From Burkholderiales bacterium (GTDB lineage: Bacteria; Pseudomonadota; Gammaproteobacteria; Burkholderiales; Usitatibacteraceae): DNA of 13,394 nucleotides. Positions within the stretch are counted from its first letter, which is position 1, and each line of letters starts with the position of its first letter. Positions 2,706 to 12,990 of the stretch are shown one piece after another. The translations under genes and the position numbers were made by a program. The stretch is taken from assembly GCA_017880705.1 (NCBI GenBank), contig JADGRS010000038.1, positions 1 to 13,394 of the forward strand, in the 5' to 3' direction. The notes under the pieces are model-generated. The model worked only from the letters and a program-made list of their open reading frames with translations. It did not search any database and was not told the DNA's origin.

Positions 2706-2777
2706 CGAAATTGGTGTCAGGTACGCATTTCGGCCGCACCGGCGCGCCGCCGAAATGCGTACCTGACACCAATTTCG
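2706..2777. repeat. Palindromic GTGTCAGGTAC repeat, long form, copy 1
   Basis: A 72-bp perfect inverted repeat with 29-bp arms (2706-2734 and 2749-2777) and a 14-base centre. Each arm holds one 21-bp unit (2709-2729 and 2754-2774, opposite orientations) of the form AATT, one base, GTGTCAGGTAC, two bases, ATT. It lies one base beyond the TAA stop of the minus-strand MetE-like gene and immediately before the ribosome binding site of the 49-aa gene. As RNA it would fold into a very stable hairpin without a following U-run. It may therefore act as a 3'-end stabiliser or weak attenuator rather than a classical terminator. Its layout resembles paired REP elements (BIME type); no transposase is in the window. 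Confidence 0.9.
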
Positions 2778-2778
2778 G

Positions 2779-3804
2779 TTAGACCAGCTCCGCGCGAACA
2801 AGTGCGGCGCCGGCGCCGAGGGATTCGAGCTTGCCGGCGGCGACCTCGCGGGGAAGGGGGACCATGCCGCAGTTGGTGCAGGGATAGAGGCGCTCGCGGG
2901 GCACGTGCTTCAGCGCTTCGCGGATGACCTTCGCCACGTCTTCGGGCGTCTCGACGCGATTGGTCGCGACGTCGATGCAGCCGACCAGCACGTCCTTGCC
3001 CTCCAGGAGCGCGATGAGATCGATGGGCACGCGCGAGTTGGCGCACTCGAGCGACACCTGGTCGATGGTGGACTTGGCGAGCAGCGGGAAGATCTGCTCG
3101 TACTGGCGCCACTCGTTGCCCAGCGACTTCTTCCAGACGATGTTCGCCTCAATGCCGTAACCGTAGCAGATGTGCACCGCGGTCTTCGCGGCGACGCCCT
3201 TGCGCGCGCGCTCGAGGGCGGCCACGCCCCACTCGCGCACCTCGTCGAAGTAGACGTTGAACGCGGGCTCGTCGAACTGGATCACGTCGATGCCGAGCGC
3301 GGCGAGCTCGCGCGCCTCCTGGTTCAGGATCGCGGCGAAGGCGAACGCGAGCTTCTCGCGCGAGCCGTAGTACTCGTCGTACAGCGTGTCGACCATCGTC
3401 ATCGGCCCGGGCAGCGTGAACTTGATCGCGTTCGCCGTCGCCGCGCGCAGGAATTTCACGTCCTCCGAGTGCACCGGCGCGGGCCGCGAGACCGGGCCCA
3501 CGACGCGCGGAACGCTCGCGTCGTAGCGATTGCGGATGCGCACCGTCTTCAGGTTCTTGAAGTCGATGCCCGTCAGCGTCTCCATGTAGCCGTTCACGAA
3601 ATGCCGGCGCGTCTGCTCGCCGTCGGTGACGATGTCGATGCCCGAGCGCTCCTGCATCTCGAGGACCAGGCGCACCGCGTCGCGCTTGCCCTCCGCGAGC
3701 GCCTCGCCCTCGAGCTTCCACGGCGCCCAGAGCTTGCGCGGCTCGGCGAGCCACGCGGGTTTCGGCAGGCTGCCGGCAATTGTGGTCGGGAGGAGGGGGA
3801 GCAT
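2779..3804 (-). CDS. Core MetE-type, cobalamin-independent methionine synthase family protein
   Basis: A 341-residue protein matching only the catalytic C-terminal half of classical MetE (about 750 aa), a standalone 'core' form. The family uses zinc to activate a thiol (homocysteine) for methyl transfer. All four expected zinc ligands are visible: His211 and Cys213 in VHICYGYG, Glu253 in VSLECANS, and Cys312 in CTNCGM. Other conserved stretches are the start TIAGSLPKPAW (8-18), DGEQTRRHFVNGY (61-73), LPGPMTM (131-137) and QFDEPAFNVYF (176-186). From memory it looks most like the MesD-type short methionine synthases, which work with an oxygenase-like partner MesX (DUF1852). No such partner is adjacent here. 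The conserved N-terminus fixes the start at or very near ATG 3802-3804, yet no Shine-Dalgarno sequence precedes it. It starts 22 bases after the upstream stop, so coupling is possible. Methionine synthesis is likely but the methyl donor is unknown. Confidence 0.85.
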   Translation of the reverse strand: MLPLLPTTIAGSLPKPAWLAEPRKLWAPWKLEGEALAEGKRDAVRLVLEMQERSGIDIVTDGEQTRRHFVNGYMETLTGIDFKNLKTVRIRNRYDASVPRVVGPVSRPAPVHSEDVKFLRAATANAIKFTLPGPMTMVDTLYDEYYGSREKLAFAFAAILNQEARELAALGIDVIQFDEPAFNVYFDEVREWGVAALERARKGVAAKTAVHICYGYGIEANIVWKKSLGNEWRQYEQIFPLLAKSTIDQVSLECANSRVPIDLIALLEGKDVLVGCIDVATNRVETPEDVAKVIREALKHVPRERLYPCTNCGMVPLPREVAAGKLESLGAGAALVRAELV

Positions 3805-3807
3805 AAA

Positions 3808-3828
3808 AATTCGTGTCAGGTACGAATT
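3808..3828. repeat. Palindromic GTGTCAGGTAC repeat, minimal single unit, copy 3
   Basis: A single 21-bp unit with the same GTGTCAGGTAC core as the two long inverted repeats. Its 7-bp arms AATTCGT (3808-3814) and ACGAATT (3822-3828) are perfectly complementary around a 7-base centre. It occupies the 22-base gap between the ketopantoate-reductase-like gene and the MetE-like gene on the minus strand. It supplies two of the three bases of the upstream TAA stop (3827-3829) and leaves only three bases before the downstream ATG, displacing any ribosome binding site. It appears to be the basic building block of the long copies. Confidence 0.7.
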
Positions 3829-4891
3829 ATCCTTTGCGGCGGTTGCGGACGAGCCAGGTGTCGACGAGCGAGACGATCTGGTCGACGGCGGCGGAGCGCT
3901 TGCCGTGCTGGGCGGCGACGGATTGGACGAGGCGATCGACGCGCTCGATGTTCTGGGCGCCGGCGCCGAGCGCGCGAGCGGCCGAGGACGGGCTTCCCAG
4001 CGATAGGGCGGCGTTGGCGTATTTCTCGAAGGGCACCATGTCGTCGTGGCTCGCGCCCAGCGACACGCACAGCTCGACGACCCAGTTGTAGACCTCGCGC
4101 GTGGCGGCCAGGTCGCCGTGCACGGCCTCCTTGATGGAGACCATCCGGTCTTCCCTCACGCATCGATAGTTGCCCGCGAGCAGCATCGCCCACTTGGCCA
4201 GCGGAACGAATACCGATTCGTGGACCTTCAGCTTCACCGGCAGCTCGAGCTTCTCGCCGTTCACCTCGAAGCGCGCGGCCTCGATGCCGGCGGCGAGCTC
4301 GCGCAGCAGCGCCGTGTGCACGTCGGAATCGAAACGCGCCGCCTTGAAATTCGTCGGCAGGCGCACCTGCAGCACGTTGACCCCTTCCTCGGGCGGGCGG
4401 AACGCCTGGGGATCCGGGCTGCAGAGCGTCATCAGCTTCGGATCGAAGCTCGCCCACACGGAAGGATCGGTATAGCTGTCGGCGCACTTCGCGGCGTCGA
4501 TGCCCGGAACGCGCGCGCGGTACGGCAGCGGCGGCATGTTCATGATCGACATGCACGGCACGCGCGACTTCGCGACGGCGTCGAGGAGCTCGCGCACGCC
4601 GGGCGAGCGGTATTGAGGCTCCTGCATCGCGAGCGCCACGAGATCGAAGTCGCGGGGATTCACGTCGGCGGGGCCCTTCGCGACGATCTTTCCGGGAAGG
4701 TCGCGCGAATTCACTTCGACCAGCCCTTCGCGGCCCTTCACCGGCATGCGCACGATGGCGCCCATCGAGTTGATGAGGGCGGCCTCCTGCGGAAGGCACA
4801 CGAGCGTCGTGTCGTGCCCGGCGAGCGCGAGCTTCACGCCCAGCAGCGAGCCGTACGACGCCCCGAGTATCAGGATCTTTCTGTTTGCCAT
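3827..4891 (-). CDS. Ketopantoate reductase (PanE/ApbA)-like NAD(P)-dependent dehydrogenase
   Basis: A 354-residue cytoplasmic oxidoreductase with the 6-phosphogluconate-dehydrogenase-like fold of PanE, opine and similar dehydrogenases. The nucleotide-binding loop is KILILGASYGSLLG (residues 5-18), with glycines at 10, 14 and 18 in the GxxxGxxxG spacing of ketopantoate-reductase relatives rather than the usual GAGAIG. The C-terminal helical domain contains VPLAKWAMLLAGN (229-241), where Lys233 and Asn241 fit the conserved PanE Lys/Asn pair. MSIMNMPPLPY (114-124) takes the place of the usual QNG segment. At 354 aa it is longer than PanE (about 300). The divergence makes pantothenate synthesis doubtful; reduction or oxidation of another 2-oxo/2-hydroxy acid is likelier. 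A GGGAGAG site lies about 6 bases before the ATG. The gene sits between a hydroxyacid dehydrogenase and a MetE-like gene, probably in one operon, and its stop codon is made by the repeat unit at 3808-3828. Confidence 0.72.
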   Translation of the reverse strand: MANRKILILGASYGSLLGVKLALAGHDTTLVCLPQEAALINSMGAIVRMPVKGREGLVEVNSRDLPGKIVAKGPADVNPRDFDLVALAMQEPQYRSPGVRELLDAVAKSRVPCMSIMNMPPLPYRARVPGIDAAKCADSYTDPSVWASFDPKLMTLCSPDPQAFRPPEEGVNVLQVRLPTNFKAARFDSDVHTALLRELAAGIEAARFEVNGEKLELPVKLKVHESVFVPLAKWAMLLAGNYRCVREDRMVSIKEAVHGDLAATREVYNWVVELCVSLGASHDDMVPFEKYANAALSLGSPSSAARALGAGAQNIERVDRLVQSVAAQHGKRSAAVDQIVSLVDTWLVRNRRKG

Positions 4892-4978
4892 GGGTTCTCT
4901 CCCGGTCCGACAGAGGCGCGGACGCCTTGAGGATAGCCCTCCCGGGATCGGCGCGTGGCGTCGCGCCCGTATGAACGG

Positions 4979-6127
4979 TTATGCAATCCGCTCCGGCATC
5001 AGGATGCTTTGGTCCACCGTGCGGATGTCCGTGCGCCCGCAAAACGCCATCGTGAGATCGAGCTCGTTGCGAATGATCTCGAGGGCCCGCGTGACGCCCA
5101 CCTCCCCCATCGCGCCCAATCCGTAGAGGAACGAGCGGCCGATGAGCGTCCCCTTGGCGCCGAGCGCGATCGCCTTCAGCACGTCCTGGCCCGAGCGGAT
5201 GCCGCCGTCCATCCACACCTCGATGCGCGAGCCCACCGCTTCGGCGATCGGCGGCAGCGCGCGGATCGACGACGGCGCGCCGTCGAGCTGGCGGCCTCCG
5301 TGGTTGGAGACGATCAGCGCGTCGGCGCCGGAGTCCGCGGCGAGCCGCGCGTCCTCGGCATCCATGATGCCCTTGAGGATGAGCTTCCCGCCCCAGCGCT
5401 TCTTGATCCATTCGACGTCGGCCCACGACAGGCGCGGGTCGAACTGCTCCCCCACCCACGTCATGAGCGACGACATGTCGCCCACCCCCTTCGCATGCCC
5501 GACGATGTTGCGGAACGTGTGGCGGCGAGTGCCGAGCATGCCGAGGCACCAGCGCGGCTTCGTCGTCATGTTGAGGATGTTGGCGAGGGTGAGCCGCGGC
5601 GGCGCCGATAGCCCGTTGATGATGTCCTTGTGGCGCTGGCCGATGATCTGCAGGTCGAGCGTGAGCATCAGCGCCGAGCAGCGCGCCGCCTTGGCGCGAT
5701 CGATGAGGCTTCCCACGAAGTCGCGGTCGCGCATCACGTAGAGCTGGAACCAGAAGGGCTTCTTCGAGCTCTCCGCGATGTCCTCGATCGAGCAGATGCT
5801 CATCGTCGAGAGCGTGAACGGCACGCCGAATTTCTCCGCCGCGCGCGCGGCGAGGATCTCGCCGTCGGCGTGCTGCATGCCGGTGAGCCCCGTCGGCGCC
5901 AGCGCGACAGGCATCGCGGCGTCGATGCCGACCAGCTTCGTCGCGAGGCTGCGCGTCTCGATGTTCACCGCGACGCGCTGGCGCAGCTCGATCTTCCCGA
6001 AGTCGCTTTCGTTCGCGCGATAGGTGCTCTCCGTCCAGCTGCCGGAGTCGGCGTAGTCGTAGAACATACGCGGCACGCGCTTCACCGCGAGCCGGCGCAA
6101 GTCCTCGATGCAGGTGATGACCGCCAT
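4979..6127 (-). CDS. FMN-dependent alpha-hydroxy-acid dehydrogenase/oxidase (LldD/glycolate oxidase family)
   Basis: A 382-residue TIM-barrel flavoenzyme that oxidises an L-2-hydroxyacid (lactate, mandelate, glycolate or similar) to the 2-oxoacid. Family landmarks in order: MFYDYADSGSWTE (21-33), ALAPTGLTGMQHADGE (75-90), FQLYVMRDRD (127-136) with catalytic Tyr130, Asp158 in LTLDLQIIGQR, Lys252 in LILKGIM, the catalytic His276 and substrate-binding Arg279 in SNHGGRQLDGAP, and the phosphate-binding MDGGIRSGQD and GRSFLYG. An in-frame ATG at 6232 exists but would run over the start of the divergent transporter gene. ATG 6127 is preceded by GGGAGAG and gives the normal family length and N-terminus. 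No transmembrane anchor is seen, but LldD-type enzymes often associate peripherally with the membrane to pass electrons to quinones. It is the first gene of the minus-strand operon. Confidence 0.92.
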   Translation of the reverse strand: MAVITCIEDLRRLAVKRVPRMFYDYADSGSWTESTYRANESDFGKIELRQRVAVNIETRSLATKLVGIDAAMPVALAPTGLTGMQHADGEILAARAAEKFGVPFTLSTMSICSIEDIAESSKKPFWFQLYVMRDRDFVGSLIDRAKAARCSALMLTLDLQIIGQRHKDIINGLSAPPRLTLANILNMTTKPRWCLGMLGTRRHTFRNIVGHAKGVGDMSSLMTWVGEQFDPRLSWADVEWIKKRWGGKLILKGIMDAEDARLAADSGADALIVSNHGGRQLDGAPSSIRALPPIAEAVGSRIEVWMDGGIRSGQDVLKAIALGAKGTLIGRSFLYGLGAMGEVGVTRALEIIRNELDLTMAFCGRTDIRTVDQSILMPERIA

Positions 6128-6188
6128 CCGTGCTCTCCCAAGTCGATCCAACAGTCCCGGAACGCAGAATACAACTAGAATCGCCCGC
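6128..6188. promoter_or_regulatory. Divergent promoter region between hydroxyacid dehydrogenase and ion transporter
   Basis: Only 61 bases separate the two divergent start codons, so promoters for both directions must lie here or within the genes. On the + strand a -10-like TAGAAT (6175-6180) lies 8 bases before ATG 6189, with AT-rich bases before it. Transcription starting from it would give a very short or leaderless message, in line with the lack of a clear ribosome binding site there. On the minus strand GGGAGAG is the ribosome binding site of the dehydrogenase gene. I see no clear operator palindrome. Confidence 0.4.
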
Positions 6189-7445
6189 ATGTTGACCGAC
6201 TCGACGCTGGGCCTGGTTCCCGGCGAGTTCATCCTCTTCGCCGTCGTGCTCGCGGGAATCGCGCTCCTGCAGCGCTACACGCTGGAGGTCGCCCTCACGG
6301 GGCTCGCGGCGGTCACGATCTACAAGCTCGAGTACACGGGCTTCGCGCAGGGGCCGGGCCTCGCCGGCCTCGCGGGCCTCCTCGCGCACGAGTGGGTCAT
6401 CCTCGCCAACCTCTTCGGCCTGCTCATGGGCTTCGCGCTCCTGTCGAAGCACTTCGAGGAGTCGCAGGTGCCCGCGGTGTTGCCCGCGATCCTTCCCGAC
6501 GACTGGAAGGGCGGGTTCTTCCTCCTCGTGATGGTCTTCGTCCTCTCGTCCTTCCTCGACAACATCGCCGCGGCGCTGATCGGCGGGACGATGGCCGCGG
6601 CGGTATTCCGCGGCAAGCTGCACATCGGCTACCTCGCCGCGATCGTCGCCGCGTCCAACGCCGGCGGATCGGGGAGCGTCGTCGGCGATACGACGACGAC
6701 CATGATGTGGATCTCGGGCGTCGATCCGCGCGACGTCTTCGAGGCCTACGTCGCCGCCGGCGTCGCGCTCGTCATCACCGGGGTCTTCGCCGCGCGCCGG
6801 CAGCAGGCGTACTCGCCGATCCTCAAGGATCCTCCGCCGGGGGTGCGCGTCGATTGGGTGCGCGTCGCGATCGTCGCGTTGATCCTCGTCGTCGCGATCC
6901 TCGCGAACGTCATCGCCAACCTGAAGTATCCGGAATCGCTCGATCGCTTTCCGGTGATCGGCGCCGCGGTATGGGCGGCGATCCTCGTCACCGCCGGAGT
7001 GCGCCGTCCCGATTGGTCGCTCCTGCCCTCGACCTTCCGGGGCACGCTGTTCCTCCTCGCGCTCGTCACCACCGCCGCGATGATGCCGGTGGAGAAGCTC
7101 CCCGCCGCGTCGTGGCAATCGACCCTGGGCCTGGGATTCTTGTCGGCGGTGTTCGACAACATTCCCCTCACGGCGCTCGCGCTGCACCAGGGCGGCTACG
7201 ACTGGGGATTCCTCGCCTACGCGGTGGGCTTCGGCGGCTCGATGATCTGGTTCGGCTCGTCGGCGGGGGTCGCCCTCTCGAACGCCTTCCCCGAGTCGCG
7301 CTCCGTCGGGAAGTGGCTGCGCGAGGGATGGCACGTTGCGCTCGCGTATGTCGTGGGCTTCTTCGTCCTTCTCGCGGTGCTGGGCTGGCATCCCCACGGG
7401 CAGCACACGCCGGCCGAGGCGCCCGTGTCCGGAACCGCGCACTGA
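6189..7445 (+). CDS. NhaD/ArsB/CitM-type ion transporter (ion transporter superfamily)
   Basis: A 418-residue polytopic inner-membrane protein with about 10-12 hydrophobic segments. Two inverted-repeat-like motifs are diagnostic: SSFLDNIAAALIGG (120-133) and, in the second half, LSAVFDNIPLTALAL (318-332), each with an Asp-Asn pair (124-125 and 323-324) in a broken helix. NAGGSGSVVGDTTTTMMWISG (157-177) matches the Asn/Gly-rich, GDxTTTM region of NhaD Na+/H+ antiporters. Citrate and arsenite permeases share the fold, so the substrate (Na+/H+ or an organic anion) is not settled. ATG 6189 is chosen because the hydrophobic N-terminus starts right after it. An earlier in-frame ATG (6108) would lie inside the divergent gene. 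The ribosome binding site is weak. Its place next to a hydroxyacid dehydrogenase and a TRAP system makes carboxylate transport or sodium-gradient upkeep for Na+-driven uptake plausible, but this is inference. Confidence 0.78.
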   Translation: MLTDSTLGLVPGEFILFAVVLAGIALLQRYTLEVALTGLAAVTIYKLEYTGFAQGPGLAGLAGLLAHEWVILANLFGLLMGFALLSKHFEESQVPAVLPAILPDDWKGGFFLLVMVFVLSSFLDNIAAALIGGTMAAAVFRGKLHIGYLAAIVAASNAGGSGSVVGDTTTTMMWISGVDPRDVFEAYVAAGVALVITGVFAARRQQAYSPILKDPPPGVRVDWVRVAIVALILVVAILANVIANLKYPESLDRFPVIGAAVWAAILVTAGVRRPDWSLLPSTFRGTLFLLALVTTAAMMPVEKLPAASWQSTLGLGFLSAVFDNIPLTALALHQGGYDWGFLAYAVGFGGSMIWFGSSAGVALSNAFPESRSVGKWLREGWHVALAYVVGFFVLLAVLGWHPHGQHTPAEAPVSGTAH

Positions 7446-7449
7446 GCCT

Positions 7450-7487
7450 CACCCCCGGTATCTTCATTTCATACCGGAATGGGGGTG
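7450..7487 (+). terminator. Possible terminator hairpin after the ion transporter gene
   Basis: An imperfect stem-loop a few bases after the TGA at 7443-7445. An inner stem CCGGTAT/ATACCGG (7455-7461, 7471-7477) encloses a 9-base loop and an outer stem CACCC/GGGTG (7450-7454, 7483-7487), with a 5-base bulge on the 3' side. No U-run follows directly; the first T-run is near 7511. It may be an inefficient terminator or an mRNA 3'-end structure. Confidence 0.4.
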
Positions 7488-7526
7488 GGGCGCACCCTGT
7501 CGAGGCGCAGTTTTGACTTTCGTCTA

Positions 7527-7555
7527 TTGCCTTTGCCCGCACCCGAGACTAGGAT
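7527..7555 (+). promoter_or_regulatory. Candidate sigma-70 promoter for the TRAP operon
   Basis: TTGCCT (7527-7532) and TAGGAT (7550-7555) are spaced by 17 bases. Each matches the consensus -35 or -10 box at four of six positions. They lie in the 202-base gap before the binding-protein gene and would give a leader of about 85 bases. Found by eye only. A nearby TTGACT (7513-7518) lacks a good -10 at the right distance. Confidence 0.35.
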
Positions 7556-7635
7556 TGGCCGGTCGATCGGGGGCCCAGGCCGACGGTCGCCCCGCGAAAA
7601 AAAGCGTCGTCACGAGCGCCGACAAAAATCCAATG

Positions 7636-7641
7636 AGGAGG
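7636..7641 (+). promoter_or_regulatory. Strong ribosome binding site fixing the TRAP binding-protein start
   Basis: A full-consensus AGGAGG lies six bases before ATG 7648. It selects this ATG over earlier in-frame start codons and predicts high expression, as expected for a periplasmic binding protein. Confidence 0.85.
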
Positions 7642-7647
7642 AATTCC

Positions 7648-8802
7648 ATGAAAGCCGACAAGACAAACGTCGCGTCCGCGACGCCGAGCCCGACGCGCCG
7701 CAAGTTCCTCGCCGCCGGCGCAGGGGCGGGCGCGCTCGCATTCCCGATGATCTCGAAGGGCCAGGCCGGCCCGCTCAACTTCCGCTTCCAGTCGACCTGG
7801 CCGCAGAAGGACATCTTCCACGAGTACGCGCAGGACTACGCGAAGATCGTGAACGACATGACCGGAGGCGACCTCAAGATCGAGGTTCTGCCCGCCGGAG
7901 CGGTCGTGCCGGCCTTCGGCCTGCTCGATGCGGTTTCCAAGGGCACGCTCGACGGCGGCCACGGCGTGCTCGTATATCACTACGGCAAGAGCAACGCGCT
8001 CTCGCTCTGGGGTTCCGGTCCCGGCTACGGCATGGACGCCAACATGCTGCTCGCCTGGCACAAATGGGGCGGCGGCAAGGAGCTGCTCGCGAAGATCTAC
8101 GAGGGAATCGGCGCGAACGTGGTCTCGTTCCCCTACGCTCCGCTCTACACGCAGCCGCTCGGCTGGTTCAAGAAGGTGATCACCAAGCCCGAGGACTTCA
8201 AGGGCCTCAAGTACCGCACGGTGGGCATCTCGATCGACCTCTTCACCGCCATGGGGGCGGCCGTCAACGCGCTGCCCGGAGGCGAGATCGTTCCGGCGAT
8301 CGACCGGGGCCTCCTCGACGCGGCGGAATTCAACAACACCTCGTCCGACCGCGCGCTGGGCTTCGCCGACGTGTCCAAGATCTGCATGCTGCAGAGCTAT
8401 CACCAGAACGCGGAGCAGCTCGAGATCACGTTCAACAAGACCAAGTACGACGCGCTCTCGCCCAAGCTGAAGTCGATCATCGCGAGCGCGGTCGACGCGG
8501 CCTCGGCCAACATGATGTGGAAGGCGATCGACCGCAACTCGCAGGACTACATCACGCTGCAGTCCGTGGACAAGGTGAAGTTCTACAAGACGCCGACCTC
8601 GATCCTGCAGAAGCAGATGGAGCTCTACGACGAGATCATCGAGAAGAAATCCCAGGGCAATCCGCTGTTCGCGGAAATCGTCGCCTCGCAGAAGAAGTTC
8701 GCCGAGCGCGCGGTGAAGTGGGAGCAGGACGTCGTCGTCAGCCGGGCCTTGGCGTACAACCACTACTTCGGCAAGGCCGCCCCCGCGGGGAAGAAGGCCT
8801 GA
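7648..8802 (+). CDS. dctP: TRAP transporter substrate-binding protein, DctP family (Tat-exported)
   Basis: A 384-residue periplasmic binding protein that delivers its ligand, usually an organic acid, to the TRAP permease. The N-terminus has a twin-arginine signal: TRRKFLAAGAGAGALAFP at residues 16-33, with cleavage likely near 36-40 (SKGQA). That implies export in folded form. The mature start LNFRFQSTWPQKDIFHEYA (43-61) and ILPAG-like LPAGAVVPAFGLLDAV fit the group of TakP/FcbT1-type binding proteins (2-oxoacid, mannitol or chloroaromatic uptake). Arg190 in LKYRTVG is the conserved arginine that salt-bridges the ligand carboxylate. The region after GLLDAAEF (221-228) reads NNTSSDRALGF and lacks the VGPxDD and YYYPGWHEPG-like segments I remember from typical members, so the ligand may differ. 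Together with the following two genes it forms a complete system. A terminator hairpin follows it, likely giving more binding protein than permease. Confidence 0.92.
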   Translation: MKADKTNVASATPSPTRRKFLAAGAGAGALAFPMISKGQAGPLNFRFQSTWPQKDIFHEYAQDYAKIVNDMTGGDLKIEVLPAGAVVPAFGLLDAVSKGTLDGGHGVLVYHYGKSNALSLWGSGPGYGMDANMLLAWHKWGGGKELLAKIYEGIGANVVSFPYAPLYTQPLGWFKKVITKPEDFKGLKYRTVGISIDLFTAMGAAVNALPGGEIVPAIDRGLLDAAEFNNTSSDRALGFADVSKICMLQSYHQNAEQLEITFNKTKYDALSPKLKSIIASAVDAASANMMWKAIDRNSQDYITLQSVDKVKFYKTPTSILQKQMELYDEIIEKKSQGNPLFAEIVASQKKFAERAVKWEQDVVVSRALAYNHYFGKAAPAGKKA

Positions 8803-8821
8803 CCGCCGGAAGGCACCCAGG

Positions 8822-8862
8822 GGCACCATCCGGGCTTCGATCCCGGATGGTGCCTCGTTTTT
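8822..8862 (+). terminator. Intrinsic terminator/attenuator between binding-protein and permease genes
   Basis: A perfect 13-bp stem (8822-8834 with 8842-8854) with a 7-base loop, followed by TCGTTTTT (8855-8862). It meets the definition of a rho-independent terminator. Because the permease genes start only 38 bases further and show no obvious promoter, it probably lets part of the transcription through and sets a binding-protein excess over permease. Confidence 0.85.
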
Positions 8863-8899
8863 CGTAGCGGCTCATTTCCCGGAAGCGTAGGCCCGTCCC

Positions 8900-9571
8900 A
8901 TGAAGATCCAGAGTTTCCTGCTCACCGCCGACCACATCAGCACGTGGGCCGGCAAAGCCGCCGCCTGGCTGGTCATGATCCTGATGATGGTCGTCTGCGT
9001 GGAGGTGTTCAAGCGCTACATCATGAACATGCCGACCGCGTGGATCTTCGACATCACGAACATGCTCTACGGCACGCTCTTCATGATGTGCGGCGCCTAC
9101 ACCCTCGCCCAGGACGCCCACGTCAGGGGCGACTTCCTCTACGGCTCGATGAAGCCGCGCACCCAGGCGACGCTCGACCTCATCCTCTACATCCTCTTCT
9201 TCCTGCCCGGGATGATGGCGCTCATCTACGCGGGATACGACTACGCCTCCATCTCGTGGCACATCAACGAGCATTCGAACGTCTCGTCCAACGGGCCGGC
9301 GGTGTACCCGTTCAAGACCATCATCCCGATCGCCGGCGTCCTCGTCCTCATCCAGGGGATCGCCGAGATCATGCGCTGCATCGTTTGCCTGAAGACCGGC
9401 GTCTGGCCGGACCGCCTGAAAGACGCCGAGGAGATCGATGTGATCGAGCAGCAGCTCGCGGGCAGCACGCTCGTGGACGACGAGTCGCGCAAGCGCGCGA
9501 TCGAGGGTGCCCACGAGATCGACGAGGCCGCGCACCAGCGCATCGGATCGAGAGGAGCGGAACGTGAGTGA
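8900..9571 (+). CDS. dctQ: TRAP transporter small permease subunit, DctQ family
   Basis: A 223-residue inner-membrane protein with four predicted helices, at about residues 19-37, 52-70, 90-112 and 138-160. This is the DctQ pattern. The conserved early segment VEVFKRYIMNMPTAWIFDIT (34-53) and the motif AYTLAQDAHVRGDFLY (66-81) are typical. It packs against DctM and forms the docking surface for the binding protein. About 60 hydrophilic, charged residues at the C-terminus (164-223) probably lie in the cytoplasm and make it longer than an average DctQ. GTAGG eight bases before ATG 8900 serves as a modest ribosome binding site. Its last 8 bases overlap the start of the large permease gene, showing translational coupling. 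Confidence 0.9.
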   Translation: MKIQSFLLTADHISTWAGKAAAWLVMILMMVVCVEVFKRYIMNMPTAWIFDITNMLYGTLFMMCGAYTLAQDAHVRGDFLYGSMKPRTQATLDLILYILFFLPGMMALIYAGYDYASISWHINEHSNVSSNGPAVYPFKTIIPIAGVLVLIQGIAEIMRCIVCLKTGVWPDRLKDAEEIDVIEQQLAGSTLVDDESRKRAIEGAHEIDEAAHQRIGSRGAERE

Positions 9572-11447
9572 TCCCGCACTCGGCCTGTTGATGCTCACGC
9601 TGATCGTGGTCGTGATCATGCTGGGCTTTCCGACCGCCTTCACGCTGATGGGCCTCGGCATGATGTTCGGCTTCGTCGCCTTCTACGACCCGTCGCACTC
9701 CTGGGCCGACAACAAGGTCTTCGACCTCATGGTCGAGCGAACCTACGGCGCGATGAACAACGACGTGCTCATCTCGATACCGTTATTCGTGCTCATGGGC
9801 TACGTGATGGAACGAGGGGCGCTCGTGGACAAGATGTTCTACAGCATCCAGCTCGCGTTCCGGCGCGTGCCCGCGTCCCTCGCGGTGGCGACCCTCATCG
9901 TGTGCACGTTCTGGGGCATCGCGAGCGGCCTCGTCGGCGCCGTCGTGGTGCTGATGGGCGTGATCGCGTTCAACCCGATGCTGAAGGCCGGCTACGACGT
10001 GCGCCTCGCCTCGGGCGTCATCACCGCGGGCGGCACGCTCGGCATCCTCATTCCGCCGTCGGTGATGATCATCGTCTACGCCGCGGTCGCCGGGCAGTCG
10101 GTCGTGAAGCTCTACGCCTCGGCGATGTTCCCCGGCTTCTTCCTTTCGTTCCTCTACCTCCTCTACATCATCGGCTGGGCGCTCTTGAATCCCAAGATCG
10201 CCCCGCGCCTTCCCGATTCGGAGACCAAGGTGCCGGTCCCGGCCTGGATCCCGAATTTCCAGAAGGCTTACTCGAAGAACATGCTGGTGGGCCTTTTCAC
10301 CGCGGTGGTCCGGCCCGCCAAGGCCCTCGCGATCGAAGTCGAGGGGACCCGGCTGACCTACTGGGGAATCTGGAAGAACCTCCTCGCCGCTCTCTTTCCG
10401 CTGATGCTCGCCGTGGTGAGCGTGTGGTTGATCTGGTGGTACGTGGTAATCCACCCTATGGCGGACGTCGAGCCGGTAGCGAGCGTCGCGCAACAGGCCG
10501 CTCCGGCGGCATCCGCGCGCGCGCCGGCGGCGAACGCCGACCAGCCGCAGGAGCTGGGATCGGGCATCTCGCCCGATGCCGCAACGCCCGCGCAGGATTC
10601 GACCGAGTCCGCCGAGCAGGTCGGCACGCCCGAGCTCCTCAAGCAGGGCGGCGCGGCACCCGTCGATGCGGGACCTCCGCCGGAATTCTTCTACTACTTC
10701 TGGGGCATCGTCGCCGCGACCGGGCTCGTGCTCCTCTGGTACTACTGGAAGCTCGAGGGCGAGTCGTTCGAGTTGCTGAAGCTGCTGAGCTCGTCGGTGA
10801 TGCCGCTCGGCATCCTCACGATCGTGGTGCTCGCGGTGATCCTCTTCGGCATCACGACCGCGACCGAGTCCGCCGCGATCGGCGCCGCGGGCGCGTTCAT
10901 CCTCGCGCTGCATGCCGGCACCTTCGACTGGGATCGCCTCAAGCAGTCGGTGTTCCTCACGGCGAAGACGACGGCGATGGTGTGCTGGCTGTTCATCGGG
11001 TCGGCGCTCTTCTCGGGCGTGTTCGCGATCCTCGGGGGGCAGCAGCTGGTCGAGACTTGGGTGCTGAGCCTCAACATGACGCCGATCCAGTTCATGATCC
11101 TGTCGCAGGCGATCATCTTCGTGCTCGGCTGGCCGCTCGAATGGACGGAGATCATCGTGATCTTCGTGCCGATCTTCCTGCCGCTGCTCAAGCACTTCAA
11201 CATCGACCCGATCCTGTGGGGCACGCTGGTGTTCGTGAACCTGCAGGCGGCGTTCCTCTCGCCGCCGGTGGCGATGTCGGCCTTCTACCTGAAGGGTGTC
11301 TCGCCGAAGCACGTGACGCTGAACCAGATCTTCGCGGGCATGATGCCCTACATGCTGATCGTGATCCTGTGCATGGTGATCATGTACCTGTGGCCGGGCA
11401 TGACGCTGTGGCTGCCCAACTACCTGTACGGGAACGCCGGCGGCTAG
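9564..11447 (+). CDS. dctM: TRAP transporter large permease subunit, DctM family, with central insertion
   Basis: A 627-residue membrane protein that moves the ligand through an elevator-type, Na+-coupled transport domain. It starts at GTG 9564 with GAGGAG upstream inside dctQ; an in-frame ATG at 9507 lies deeper in dctQ and lacks support. DctM landmarks are GFPTAFTLMGLGMMFG (21-36), IPLFVLMGYVMERG (72-85), SGVITAGGTLGILIPPS (150-166), TTATESAAIGAAGA (431-444) and VNLQAAFLSPPVAMSAFYLKG (558-578, an N- and P-rich hairpin). Typical DctM proteins have about 425-440 residues. Here about 160-200 extra residues sit between roughly 210 and 405. They contain a membrane segment near 271-296, an Ala/Pro/Gln/Ser-rich linker (about 303-373) and another membrane segment near 375-395. 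The reading frame is intact through it. Its stop TAG abuts the stop of the convergent gene. Confidence 0.9.
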   Translation: MSDPALGLLMLTLIVVVIMLGFPTAFTLMGLGMMFGFVAFYDPSHSWADNKVFDLMVERTYGAMNNDVLISIPLFVLMGYVMERGALVDKMFYSIQLAFRRVPASLAVATLIVCTFWGIASGLVGAVVVLMGVIAFNPMLKAGYDVRLASGVITAGGTLGILIPPSVMIIVYAAVAGQSVVKLYASAMFPGFFLSFLYLLYIIGWALLNPKIAPRLPDSETKVPVPAWIPNFQKAYSKNMLVGLFTAVVRPAKALAIEVEGTRLTYWGIWKNLLAALFPLMLAVVSVWLIWWYVVIHPMADVEPVASVAQQAAPAASARAPAANADQPQELGSGISPDAATPAQDSTESAEQVGTPELLKQGGAAPVDAGPPPEFFYYFWGIVAATGLVLLWYYWKLEGESFELLKLLSSSVMPLGILTIVVLAVILFGITTATESAAIGAAGAFILALHAGTFDWDRLKQSVFLTAKTTAMVCWLFIGSALFSGVFAILGGQQLVETWVLSLNMTPIQFMILSQAIIFVLGWPLEWTEIIVIFVPIFLPLLKHFNIDPILWGTLVFVNLQAAFLSPPVAMSAFYLKGVSPKHVTLNQIFAGMMPYMLIVILCMVIMYLWPGMTLWLPNYLYGNAGG

Positions 11448-11855
11448 CTATTTCCCGCAGATGGTGGCGAGCTGGCCGAGCCACGCGTCGCGCTTGTCGC
11501 GGCGGAACTGGAACCAGATCCGGTACGGCGAGAACACGGCCCCTGGAACTCCCACGGAGACCCAATGGTGCGTGACGCCGAGCGTCGATTCGTGCACCGG
11601 ATCGATCGATACGACGTCGTTGGGCGAAAGAACGCTCGCGTGGGGCCAGTCGACGAGCACGAGGCGGTTGCGGCCCTTCTCGTATCCCACGTAGGTGTCG
11701 CCCTTGCGATGGAAGACGTCGGGCTTGAAATCCGGCGGCAGGAGGCGGGCGACCTTCTCCGCGTAGGTGTCGCCTCGCATGAACAGGCTGTACGAGAACC
11801 AGATGCCGACGGTGAACGCGGCGAAGATTCCTACTCCGAACAATGTGCTCATCAT
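11448..11855 (-). CDS. Membrane-anchored protein of unknown function, 135 aa
   Basis: I do not recognise a family. The frame stays open far upstream (to 13070) only as a shadow of the opposite strand. The true start is most likely ATG 11855 (MMSTLFGVGIF) or the next codon, with AAGGGG or CAGGA before it. One hydrophobic helix spans about residues 5-25 (LFGVGIFAAFTVGIWFSYSLF), then a soluble domain with several beta-like stretches: GDTYVGYEKGRNRLVLVDW (52-70), DVVSIDP (80-86) and HHWVSVGVPGAVFSPYRIWFQFRRDKRD (96-123). This could be a PH-like or SH3-like small barrel; that is a guess. The stop TAG directly abuts the stop of the TRAP large permease, giving a convergent pair with no gap. It is divergent from the hydroxyacid dehydrogenase gene. 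Confidence 0.68.
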   Translation of the reverse strand: MMSTLFGVGIFAAFTVGIWFSYSLFMRGDTYAEKVARLLPPDFKPDVFHRKGDTYVGYEKGRNRLVLVDWPHASVLSPNDVVSIDPVHESTLGVTHHWVSVGVPGAVFSPYRIWFQFRRDKRDAWLGQLATICGK

Positions 11856-11945
11856 TCCTGCGGCCCCTTCCGTATCGATTGACCATGCTATGCTGATCGC
11901 GCCTCCGGCGCTCGGATATTTCCCGAGCTTCCGAATCCTCATTCC
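11856..11945. promoter_or_regulatory. Divergent promoter region upstream of the D-2-hydroxyacid dehydrogenase gene
   Basis: This 90-base gap between two divergent genes must carry promoters for one or both. On the + strand TGCTATGCT (11886-11894) fits an extended -10 element (TGN before TATGCT), giving a leader of about 45 bases. I see no good -35 at 17 bases. TTGACC (11879-11884) is too close to pair with it. No clear ribosome binding site precedes ATG 11946. Found by eye only. Confidence 0.3.
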
Positions 11946-12905
11946 ATGCGCAAGATCCTGATCACGCGTGCCGTGTTTCCCGAGGTCGTCGCCGCGCTTT
12001 CGCGGCGCTTCGAGGTCGTCCATAACGCCGAGGATCGCCCGTGGCCGCCGGAAGAGCTCGCGCGGCGCCTGGAGGGCGTGAGCGGCGCGATGGCCACCGT
12101 GATGGACAAATTCGACGAGCCCATCCTCGCTCAATGCGCGCAGCTCAAGGTGATCTCCAACATCGCGGTCGGGTACAACAACATCGACGTTCCGGCGTGC
12201 ACGCGGCGAGGCATTCGCGTGACGAACACACCCGGCGTCCTCGACGACACCACCGCCGATCTCACGTGGTCCCTGCTGATGGCCGCGGCGCGCCGCATCG
12301 CGGAGGCCGACGCGTACGTGCGCCGGGGCGATTGGAAGATCGCTTTCGGCGTGCAGTACTTCCTCGGGCAGGACATTCACCACGCGACGCTCGGCATCAT
12401 CGGCATGGGGCGCATCGGCCAGGCGATCGCGCGGCGCGCGTCGGGATTCGACATGCGCGTGCTCTACAACAATCGCTCGCGCCTTTCCGAATCCGACGAG
12501 AAGCGGCTCAACGCGACGCGCGTCGAGCGCGACGAGCTCCTCGCGCAGTCGGACTTCGTCGTGGTGATGGTTCCCTACTCGCCAGCGACCCATCACATGA
12601 TCGGCGCCGCCGAGATCGCGAAGATGAAACCCAATGCGATCCTCGTGAACAGCGCCCGCGGCGGCGTGGTCGACGATGCGGCCCTGGTCGAGGCGTTGAA
12701 GGCGAGGCGCATCGCCGGCGCGGGCCTCGACGTCTTCGAGGGCGAGCCGAAGCTCCACCCCGAGCTCGCGGCGCTTCCGAACGTGGTCCTCACGCCCCAC
12801 ATCGGCAGCGCCTCGCGCGCGACGCGCGTCGTGATGTGCAACGCCGCGGCGGGCAACATGACCGCGGTGCTCGAAGGCCGCGAGCCGGCGAATCCGGTAA
12901 ATTGA
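11946..12905 (+). CDS. D-2-hydroxyacid dehydrogenase (glyoxylate/hydroxypyruvate/2-ketogluconate reductase type)
   Basis: A 319-residue cytoplasmic NAD(P)H-dependent dehydrogenase, normal family length. It reduces a 2-oxoacid such as glyoxylate or hydroxypyruvate to the D-2-hydroxyacid. The cofactor loop is LGIIGMGRIGQAIA (149-162). The catalytic triad is visible as Arg238 in VNSARGGVVDD, Glu267 in DVFEGEP and His285 in TPHIGSAS. NIAVGYNNID (72-81) and TADLTWSLLMAAARRI (103-118) are typical of the GhrB/GyaR branch. After the first cofactor strand LYNNRSR (173-179) carries NRS rather than an acidic residue, which usually favours NADPH over NADH. The following gene, a tartronate-semialdehyde-reductase family member, would act on the same C2/C3 acid pool, and the pair probably forms an operon. 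A palindromic repeat starts one base after the stop. Confidence 0.9.
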   Translation: MRKILITRAVFPEVVAALSRRFEVVHNAEDRPWPPEELARRLEGVSGAMATVMDKFDEPILAQCAQLKVISNIAVGYNNIDVPACTRRGIRVTNTPGVLDDTTADLTWSLLMAAARRIAEADAYVRRGDWKIAFGVQYFLGQDIHHATLGIIGMGRIGQAIARRASGFDMRVLYNNRSRLSESDEKRLNATRVERDELLAQSDFVVVMVPYSPATHHMIGAAEIAKMKPNAILVNSARGGVVDDAALVEALKARRIAGAGLDVFEGEPKLHPELAALPNVVLTPHIGSASRATRVVMCNAAAGNMTAVLEGREPANPVN

Positions 12906-12906
12906 G

Positions 12907-12990
12907 GGGAAATTGGTGTCAGGTACACATTTCAGCGGTGAGCGCGGGCGTGCCCGCGTAGCTGAAATGTGTACCTGACACCAATTTCCC
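12907..12990. repeat. Palindromic GTGTCAGGTAC repeat, long form, copy 2
   Basis: An 84-bp inverted repeat with perfect 30-bp arms (12907-12936 and 12961-12990). The centre folds again into a 7-bp stem CGCGGGC/GCCCGCG (12943-12949, 12952-12958). Each arm holds one 21-bp unit (12911-12931 and 12966-12986) with the GTGTCAGGTAC core. It begins one base after the TGA of the dehydrogenase gene and ends five bases before AGGAGA, the ribosome binding site of the next gene. It lacks a U-run, so it is more likely an mRNA-stabilising or mobile palindromic element than a terminator. Confidence 0.9.

Follow-up and report, generated by a model that had tools for sequence, protein, structure and literature searches.

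A dispersed GTCAG-hairpin repeat beside stop codons in a Usitatibacteraceae genome, best explained as a REP/REPIN family of a Y1 transposase

What is the short palindrome that recurs at positions 2706–2777, 3808–3828 and 12907–12990 of contig JADGRS010000038.1 (assembly GCA_017880705.1; Burkholderiales, Usitatibacteraceae), and what spread it? An earlier note on the first 13,394 nucleotides of this contig, hereafter the window, had read the three loci as one 21-bp unit with a common core, used singly or as a head-to-head pair, and had assigned it to the repetitive extragenic palindromic (REP) and bacterial interspersed mosaic elements (BIMEs) moved by REP-associated tyrosine transposases (RAYTs). 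The core is shared by all three loci: exact GTGTCAGGTAC occurs five times in the window, at 2714(+), 2759(−), 3813(+), 12916(+) and 12971(−), and six matches are found when up to two mismatches are allowed (shuffled sequences average 1.11, and six is attained in 2 of 200). The short locus, 3808–3828(+), is a single 21-bp unit as described, AATTCGT-GTCAGGT-ACGAATT, forming a perfect 7-bp hairpin with a GTCAGGT loop. The two long loci are inward pairs, and the description of all three loci is confirmed. The inward pair at 12907–12990, of the commonest 82-bp class, has two units around an inner hairpin (12943–12958) and 30-nt arms (12907–12936/12961–12990) that are 100% complementary. The inward, REPIN/BIME-like pair at 2706–2777 (plus-strand unit 2707–2731, GC-rich spacer, minus-strand unit 2752–2776) has 32-nt arms (2706–2737/2746–2777) that are 97% complementary. 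A known RNA family was ruled out for these elements, as the window has no Rfam match.

The repeat extends far beyond these three copies. The host genome is a metagenome-assembled genome (MAG) of 3.28 Mb, 87% complete and divided into 509 contigs, in which the pattern TGTCAGGTAC occurs 172 times (87 forward and 85 reverse), with 0 + 0 matches for the reversed control pattern. Surveys of repeat and transposase covered 150 genomes, one per species, with this genome and five congeners (G001–G005) included. The family is nearly absent from the congeners (0, 0, 0, 0 and 1 copies); the highest count among the other genomes is 15 in G058, but its reversed control gives 16, and G111 has a small excess (9 copies versus 1). 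A search of a contig collection for related loci returned two distant loci only, and that collection may omit records close to this genome.

Units could be read with their flanks in 155 of the 172 cases (no flank was read for the remaining 17), and they share the consensus AAATTGGTGTCAGGTACGAATTTC around the constant core GTGTCAGGTAC. Stem positions pair as −6:15, −5:14, −4:13, −3:12, −2:11, −1:10 and 1:9, leaving GTCAGGT as the loop. A G stands at −2 in 133 of the 155 units, and in most units it faces a G at +11, giving an imperfect hairpin; some units, the window single among them, are perfect hairpins. Inward pairing dominates. Within 100 nt, 139 of 155 units have an exact inward partner, two have a degenerate inward one, six have an exact neighbor solely on the same strand or outward, and eight are single; direct tandem units occur as a minority, and no outward simple pair of up to 90 bp was counted among the 155. 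A pair-pattern search of the genome gave 34 + 37 matches against none for the controls; part of these 71 are nested, and 65 pairs were taken into analysis. Their spacings cluster in classes, the commonest (29/65) being the 82-bp type with an inner hairpin. Some pairs end in TA...TA and others in TG...CA, for example on contigs C26, C202 and C254. The elements are extragenic: under a simple codon model only 3 of the 65 pairs lie inside a scored coding frame, with one side unresolved in ten. When the 82-bp class is aligned (alignment A1), the inner hairpin (GGYGAGCAYCGGC..GCCGRTGC) resembles a second short repeat nested within the outer pair.

The same unit flanks a transposase gene. A single gene found in the genome, on the minus strand of C33:4022–4681, matches Y1_Tnp (57.1 bits against a cut-off of 23); this 87% complete genome yielded no further Y1 gene that could go with the inner hairpin of the 82-bp pairs. 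Pfam detects only the Y1_Tnp domain in the product, P0001. In gene sense, two direct units lie upstream and one inverted unit lies at the 3′ end, which is the REPtron order, and the 3′ unit encodes the last codons of the protein, KKCVPDTNF-stop. P0001 carries NHVH (N59–H62), WE (W99–E100), YIDLNP (Y120–P125, D for E) and a tail SS (S140–S141), motifs that would place it, by themselves rather than by aligned reference sequences, in TnpAREP subclass 2.1 / RAYT group 1 ("TIRYT"). When P0001 is aligned with 39 of 120 listed homologues, residues N59, H60, H62 and Y120 show no variation. The structure model (mean predicted local distance difference test score, pLDDT, 91) is closest in the PDB to 4er8 (E 5.9e-9, TMq 0.53), a RAYT in complex with a REP hairpin, with IS608 chains next; a PDB sequence search returned 4er8 only (E 0.002). 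P0001 is thus predicted by the model to have a Y1 HuH transposase fold of the TnpAREP / IS200 type. An IS200/IS605 element was rejected, as P0001 has YIDLNP rather than the YxxxQ given for that family in the available text of PMC6006769, and one copy was found where that family has a multicopy transposase. About 14 residues ahead of the tail sequence RGRKPKK are missing relative to homologues; simple truncation of P0001 by the unit is not supported, because RGRKPKK itself is retained. Subclass 2.1 / group 1 proteins are also characterized by a helix-turn-helix-like domain at the C-terminus, a region in which P0001 gives no Pfam match beyond Y1_Tnp. Homologous transposases sharing 72% and 54% identity with P0001 carry the label MAG Usitatibacter sp.

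Unit and gene also occur together in relatives. P0001 has a match in 89 of the 150 genomes, and among 70 tnpA loci inward GTCAG hairpins stand on at least one side in 33 and on both sides in 19. In a tree of these loci (one of the 70 rows, of 172 aa, was left out), P0001 falls in a 98/93 clade of nine, all of the same genus and all nine with GTCAG hairpins on both sides; the congener copies L072 and L092 fall elsewhere and are unflanked. At 17 of the 70 loci the TGA of the gene lies within CTGACC or CTGACA, the stop being supplied by the downstream unit. The sequence VPDT is found in the tail of 22 of 30 homologous proteins (the 25 best and five others), for example as CVPDTNF, VVPDTTF and CVPDTIY, and the C-terminus of P0002, CVPDTNFYFVPDTNF, reads like two tandem units; P0008, P0009, P0024, P0028, P0029, P0030, P0046 and P0079 have no VPDT tail, P0029 having VPGT. 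By analogy with P0001, VPDT is probably the translated unit in these homologues, whose proteins alone were compared. Stems differ while their pairing is kept: at least six of seven pairs form at 34 of 93 flanking GTCAG sites, a set that includes near-copies from one genome (shuffled mean 10.5, maximum 19). The pattern GGGGTCAGACNCC is found 199 times in G005, 114 in G002, 75 in G039, 56 in G006, 23 in G004, 16 in G078 and 14 in G029, with 0 or 1 reversed control matches in each, 4 and 0 times in the other two congeners, and not at all in the genome studied here. The stem type therefore differs between species. Relatives' tnpA loci carry GGGGTCAG and many have the motif GGGGWSAS, from which the unit of this genome, GGTGTCAG, is one base off.

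Several other repeats were seen in these surveys. In the tnpA flanks of another transposase clade (L055, L057, L059 and L062), GGGGACAGACCACGG units recur with GACAG in place of GTCAG and no short hairpin evident by eye. In G039, GGGGTCAGACCCC units adjoin directly in small clusters in both orientations (C4:474862–474900 and C8:75111–75149), and in G022 (L054) long fold-back arms, GGGGTCAGGTTACTTTGCACA, lie either side of the transposase gene. A replichore strand bias in G005, where all copies from 1.34 to 2.94 Mb appeared on the plus strand, was rejected as an effect of listing, since 18 of 20 fetched sites have a minus partner, one of them 434 nt away.

The hairpins of the window fold as DNA with different strengths. 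The single unit (3806–3830), as single-stranded DNA, folds at −5 kcal/mol (z −5.7), and both pairs fold strongly (−39.8 and −40.5 kcal/mol, z −12.6 and −13.1). The perfect single unit is nevertheless not simply doubled in a pair, because pair units are imperfect hairpins and the unit at 2707–2729 does not fold alone. This refines the earlier account of one 21-bp unit used singly or paired. Folds of four relatives' units (z −0.9 to −3.7) were not used as evidence, the windows cutting one arm. For 29 elements of the 82-bp class, 36 proposed base pairs are paired in 96.9% of cells, with changes on both sides in 12 of the 36; the covariation score is 0.159, versus 0.063 for shuffled alignments and 0.011–0.051 for slid structures. 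The weakest measure, further pair types, gives 18 versus 15.0, a value reached by 19 of 500 shuffles. The two arms of a pair also agree at positions that differ between pairs. The inner dinucleotide is the same in both arms in 54 of 65 pairs (26.6 expected), and the outer bases −7 to −9 agree in 94, 86 and 80% of pairs versus 69, 48 and 35% when permuted. Agreement drops at −10, which therefore marks the edge of the element. The covariation and the agreement between arms may reflect selection on the hairpin or template-switch repair of palindromes, as described in the available text of PMC8794818.

Most elements lie against stop codons. By setting, the 65 pairs comprise 23 in convergent gaps, 28 in tandem gaps, one in a divergent gap, three in a coding frame and ten with one side unresolved. 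The positions of gene ends come from a simple codon score. Of 130 element ends, 47 have no coding frame running in, and at 56 of the remaining 83 a stop codon starts at −13 to −7, with junctions such as TAG-GAAATTGG, TGA-AAATTGG and TAA-TTGG. Where a tandem gap leaves at least 30 nt free, the element is closer to the stop in 11 of 12 cases (p 0.006); among all 28 tandem elements this holds for 19 (p 0.087). In G005, 28 sampled pairs gave 56 ends, 18 without a coding frame; 31 of the 38 scored have a stop within −14 to +2, eight of the 38 through a TAA that is part of the arm itself, at −5.

Comparison with congeners shows sites without the element. The pair at 2706–2777 is missing from collinear stretches of G001 and G003, and that at 12907–12990 from those of G001, G002, G004 and G005. 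The single at 3808–3828 lies at a synteny break: its two neighbor genes are apart in G002, G003 and G005, the G001 contig ends at the site, and in G004 neither gene is among the matches listed. In G002 a GTCAG unit of that genome's own type occupies the corresponding spot upstream of the gene. A joined-flank search for empty sites gave junction-spanning congener matches at 4 of 10 sites and none at six. Both convergent stops line up at two of these four, C26 and C449, where they are 3–7 bp apart in congeners. The C26 empty site reads TGA GGC TCA in G001 and TAG CGCC CTA in G003, and in our genome the element sits between the two stops, of which the right is aligned with the congeners and the left lies further by one codon. 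The C449 site has both of its protein ends aligned with G004; at C168 the right stop and at C254 the left stop is aligned. Congener spacers are too diverged for an exact target duplication to be fixed. The element at C449:11127 (L156) has the gene end TGG AAA TAA (TGGAAATAA) where G004 has TGG GTG TAG (TGGGTGTAG). This end now agrees with the arm on the other side, which makes it a candidate for a protein C-terminus altered by template switching.

Taken together, the dispersed hairpin units very probably form a REP/REPIN family with P0001 as its transposase, the movement itself being inferred. The class proposed in the earlier note is borne out by the copy number, the predominance of inward pairs and the unit-flanked Y1 gene, and the P0001 gene is most likely the spreader of the repeat. 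P0001, with its His60, His62 and Tyr120, would bind the single-stranded hairpin by the GTCAG loop of the latter, cut beside it and rejoin as a Y1 HuH enzyme, moving single units or whole pairs; the cut-and-rejoin model is that given for TnpAREP in the available text of PMC8266576. Surviving copies would be those against stop codons, where neither gene is harmed, and arm pairing would persist through selection for hairpins able to transpose, through template switching during replication, or through both. The elements may also affect mRNA ends or the release of ribosomes.

Several observations weigh against this explanation. Neither transposition events nor excision products were observed, nor were empty sites within the species, the comparison covering one genome per species. 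The pair unit 2707–2729 by itself gives −0.4 kcal/mol (z +0.3), no better than shuffles, and a GT[AG]G 5′ foot is absent from the base composition of the 155 units at −10 to −1 and 11 to 20. At the threshold used, 37 of the 70 tnpA loci have no scored inward GTCAG hairpin, and 11 carry one in the opposite orientation. P0001 scores 72.8 bits (E 2.5e-20) against the RAYT model NCBIfam NF047646, below the curated cut-off of 80. Finally, because the MAG is incomplete and fragmented, it may lack a further Y1 gene that the organism has.

A stronger form of the same explanation would have the machinery itself prefer stop codons, or T-purine-purine, with the element ends rebuilding a stop on both sides. 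The stop positions in both genomes, the tandem gaps with free space, and the convergent genes at C26 and C449, whose stops still stand on either side of the insert (with a one-codon shift in one of four), favor it, but selection against promoter and gene damage would act in the same direction, the bias is weaker over all tandem elements, and the counts depend on the codon score and, in G005, partly on the built-in TAA; we regard it as a tentative possibility. The stop-codon location also suits the idea that the hairpins are retained as RNA devices (3′-end stabilizers, terminators or ribosome brakes), the transposase being merely their historical source. The available text of PMC12306157 reports that E. 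coli REPs within 15 nt of a stop stall ribosomes, cites a study proposing 260 of 496 E. coli REPs as translation-linked by a 15-nt rule, and gives 446 of 4,072 as its own count. The strong pair hairpins and the double changes that preserve pairing fit as well, but the collinear congener genes examined lack the elements, the window has no Rfam family, and homologous transposases retain the unit fused to the gene. We consider retention as RNA devices unlikely as the main cause, if compatible with a REP/REPIN family.

Arm agreement raises a different question, whether template switching during replication, acting on single units, is the main way in which pairs arise and stay perfect, pairs themselves seldom transposing. 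Arm-specific bases that agree within and vary between pairs, at the inner dinucleotide and at −7 to −9, argue for this, as do complementary runs of 17–20 nt that extend into flanking DNA at C256 and C361 and the C449 gene end that now resembles the other arm. The spacers, however, fall into classes, with 29 of 65 pairs of one 82-bp type, which suggests copying of whole pairs, and template switching as the principal source of pairs seems rather improbable, a shade less so than the RNA-device account. A miniature inverted-repeat transposable element (MITE) mobilized by an unrelated DDE transposase that duplicates a TA target would share the inverted-repeat layout and the TA...TA ends of some pairs, but single units and direct tandems occur, other ends are TG...CA, and a Y1 gene is both flanked by the unit and fused to it, a fusion that homologues retain; such an origin is very hard to credit. 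The REP/REPIN reading is thus preferred. A broader proposal, doubtful but worth stating, is that RAYT group 1 is the source of a large REP class recognized by a constant GTCAG hairpin loop rather than a GT[AG]G foot, whose preferential insertion at stop codons, leaving a stop on both sides, permits near-harmless spread in a gene-dense genome.

The window elements lie as follows among their neighbor genes. The pair at 2706–2777 lies one base past the stop codon of a gene at 2779–3804(−) for a Meth_synt_2 domain protein (PF01717). The single at 3808–3828 is directly upstream of the start of that gene and overlaps the TAA stop (3827–3829, minus strand) of the gene at 3827–4891(−), which encodes a 354-aa protein with no Pfam family at 1e-8. 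The pair at 12907–12990 begins 2 bp past the stop of a D-2-hydroxyacid dehydrogenase gene (PF02826, PF00389) at 11946–12905(+). Pfam also identifies a set of tripartite ATP-independent periplasmic (TRAP) transporter genes, DctP, DctQ and DctM (PF03480, PF04290, PF06808), at 7336–11447.

A constant loop with free stems provides a searchable signature and a direct candidate substrate for subclass 2.1 transposases, and a repeat that is fused to its transposase gene and placed at stop codons bears on how near-harmless spread is achieved; the data set is also suited to separating selection from template switching in hairpin covariation. Literature searches on GGTGTCAGG brought up no REP paper by title among those listed, those on GGGGTCAGA with transposase only unrelated papers, and those on Usitatibacter with repeat nothing on this repeat, judged by title among the papers listed.

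The comparisons that follow draw on the available portions of the cited papers. REP/BIME/REPIN systems with group 2 and 3 RAYTs (PMC2817692, PMC8266576) likewise have a repeat-flanked RAYT, many short palindromes and inverted doublets, and part of the E. coli REPs are reported near stop codons; unlike them, the family described here has no GT[AG]G foot, a constant loop and a unit fused to the 3′ end of the transposase gene. Atypical hairpins without GT[AG]G are known from TnpAREP subclass 2.6 and class 3 (PMC6006769), whose Y motifs, YIH[QN]NP and YV..EQ, differ from that of P0001. Among the TnpAY1 subclasses of PMC6006769, subclass 2.1 / group 1 ranks second in size (14.9%); it is common in epsilon-, beta- and deltaproteobacteria and has the motifs NHVH, W[EQ], YIELNP and tail SS in Table 1 of that paper; P0001 shares NHVH, WE and YI[DE]LNP and a host in the beta group. 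That paper lists the REP substrate of the subclass as absent and, in the text available, reports no REP-like sequences near its genes by automatic or manual search, unlike the present genome, where REP-like repeats are present. We thus describe a REP/REPIN system, without a GT[AG]G foot, in a transposase group published as lacking REPs.

PMC3733652 describes TIRYT genes with terminal inverted repeats (TIRs), a GGGGWSAS motif and TIR families dispersed in some genomes. Its TIRtrons are RAYT-like genes between inverted repeats, many with GGGGWSAS, whose TIR families are partly dispersed as singles, dimers and groups, some of them self-complementary, as here. Unlike TIRtrons, the flanking repeats of this study are hairpin units in which the GTCAG loop is constant and the stems differ; they lie at stop codons, reach 100–200 copies in three genomes and, in our genome, read GGTGTCAG; this contrast relies on the text of PMC3733652 rather than on its TIR sequences, and some overlap is possible. 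Our data join the two accounts, linking the subclass 2.1 genes for which PMC6006769 found no REPs with the TIRs that PMC3733652 described at the same genes.

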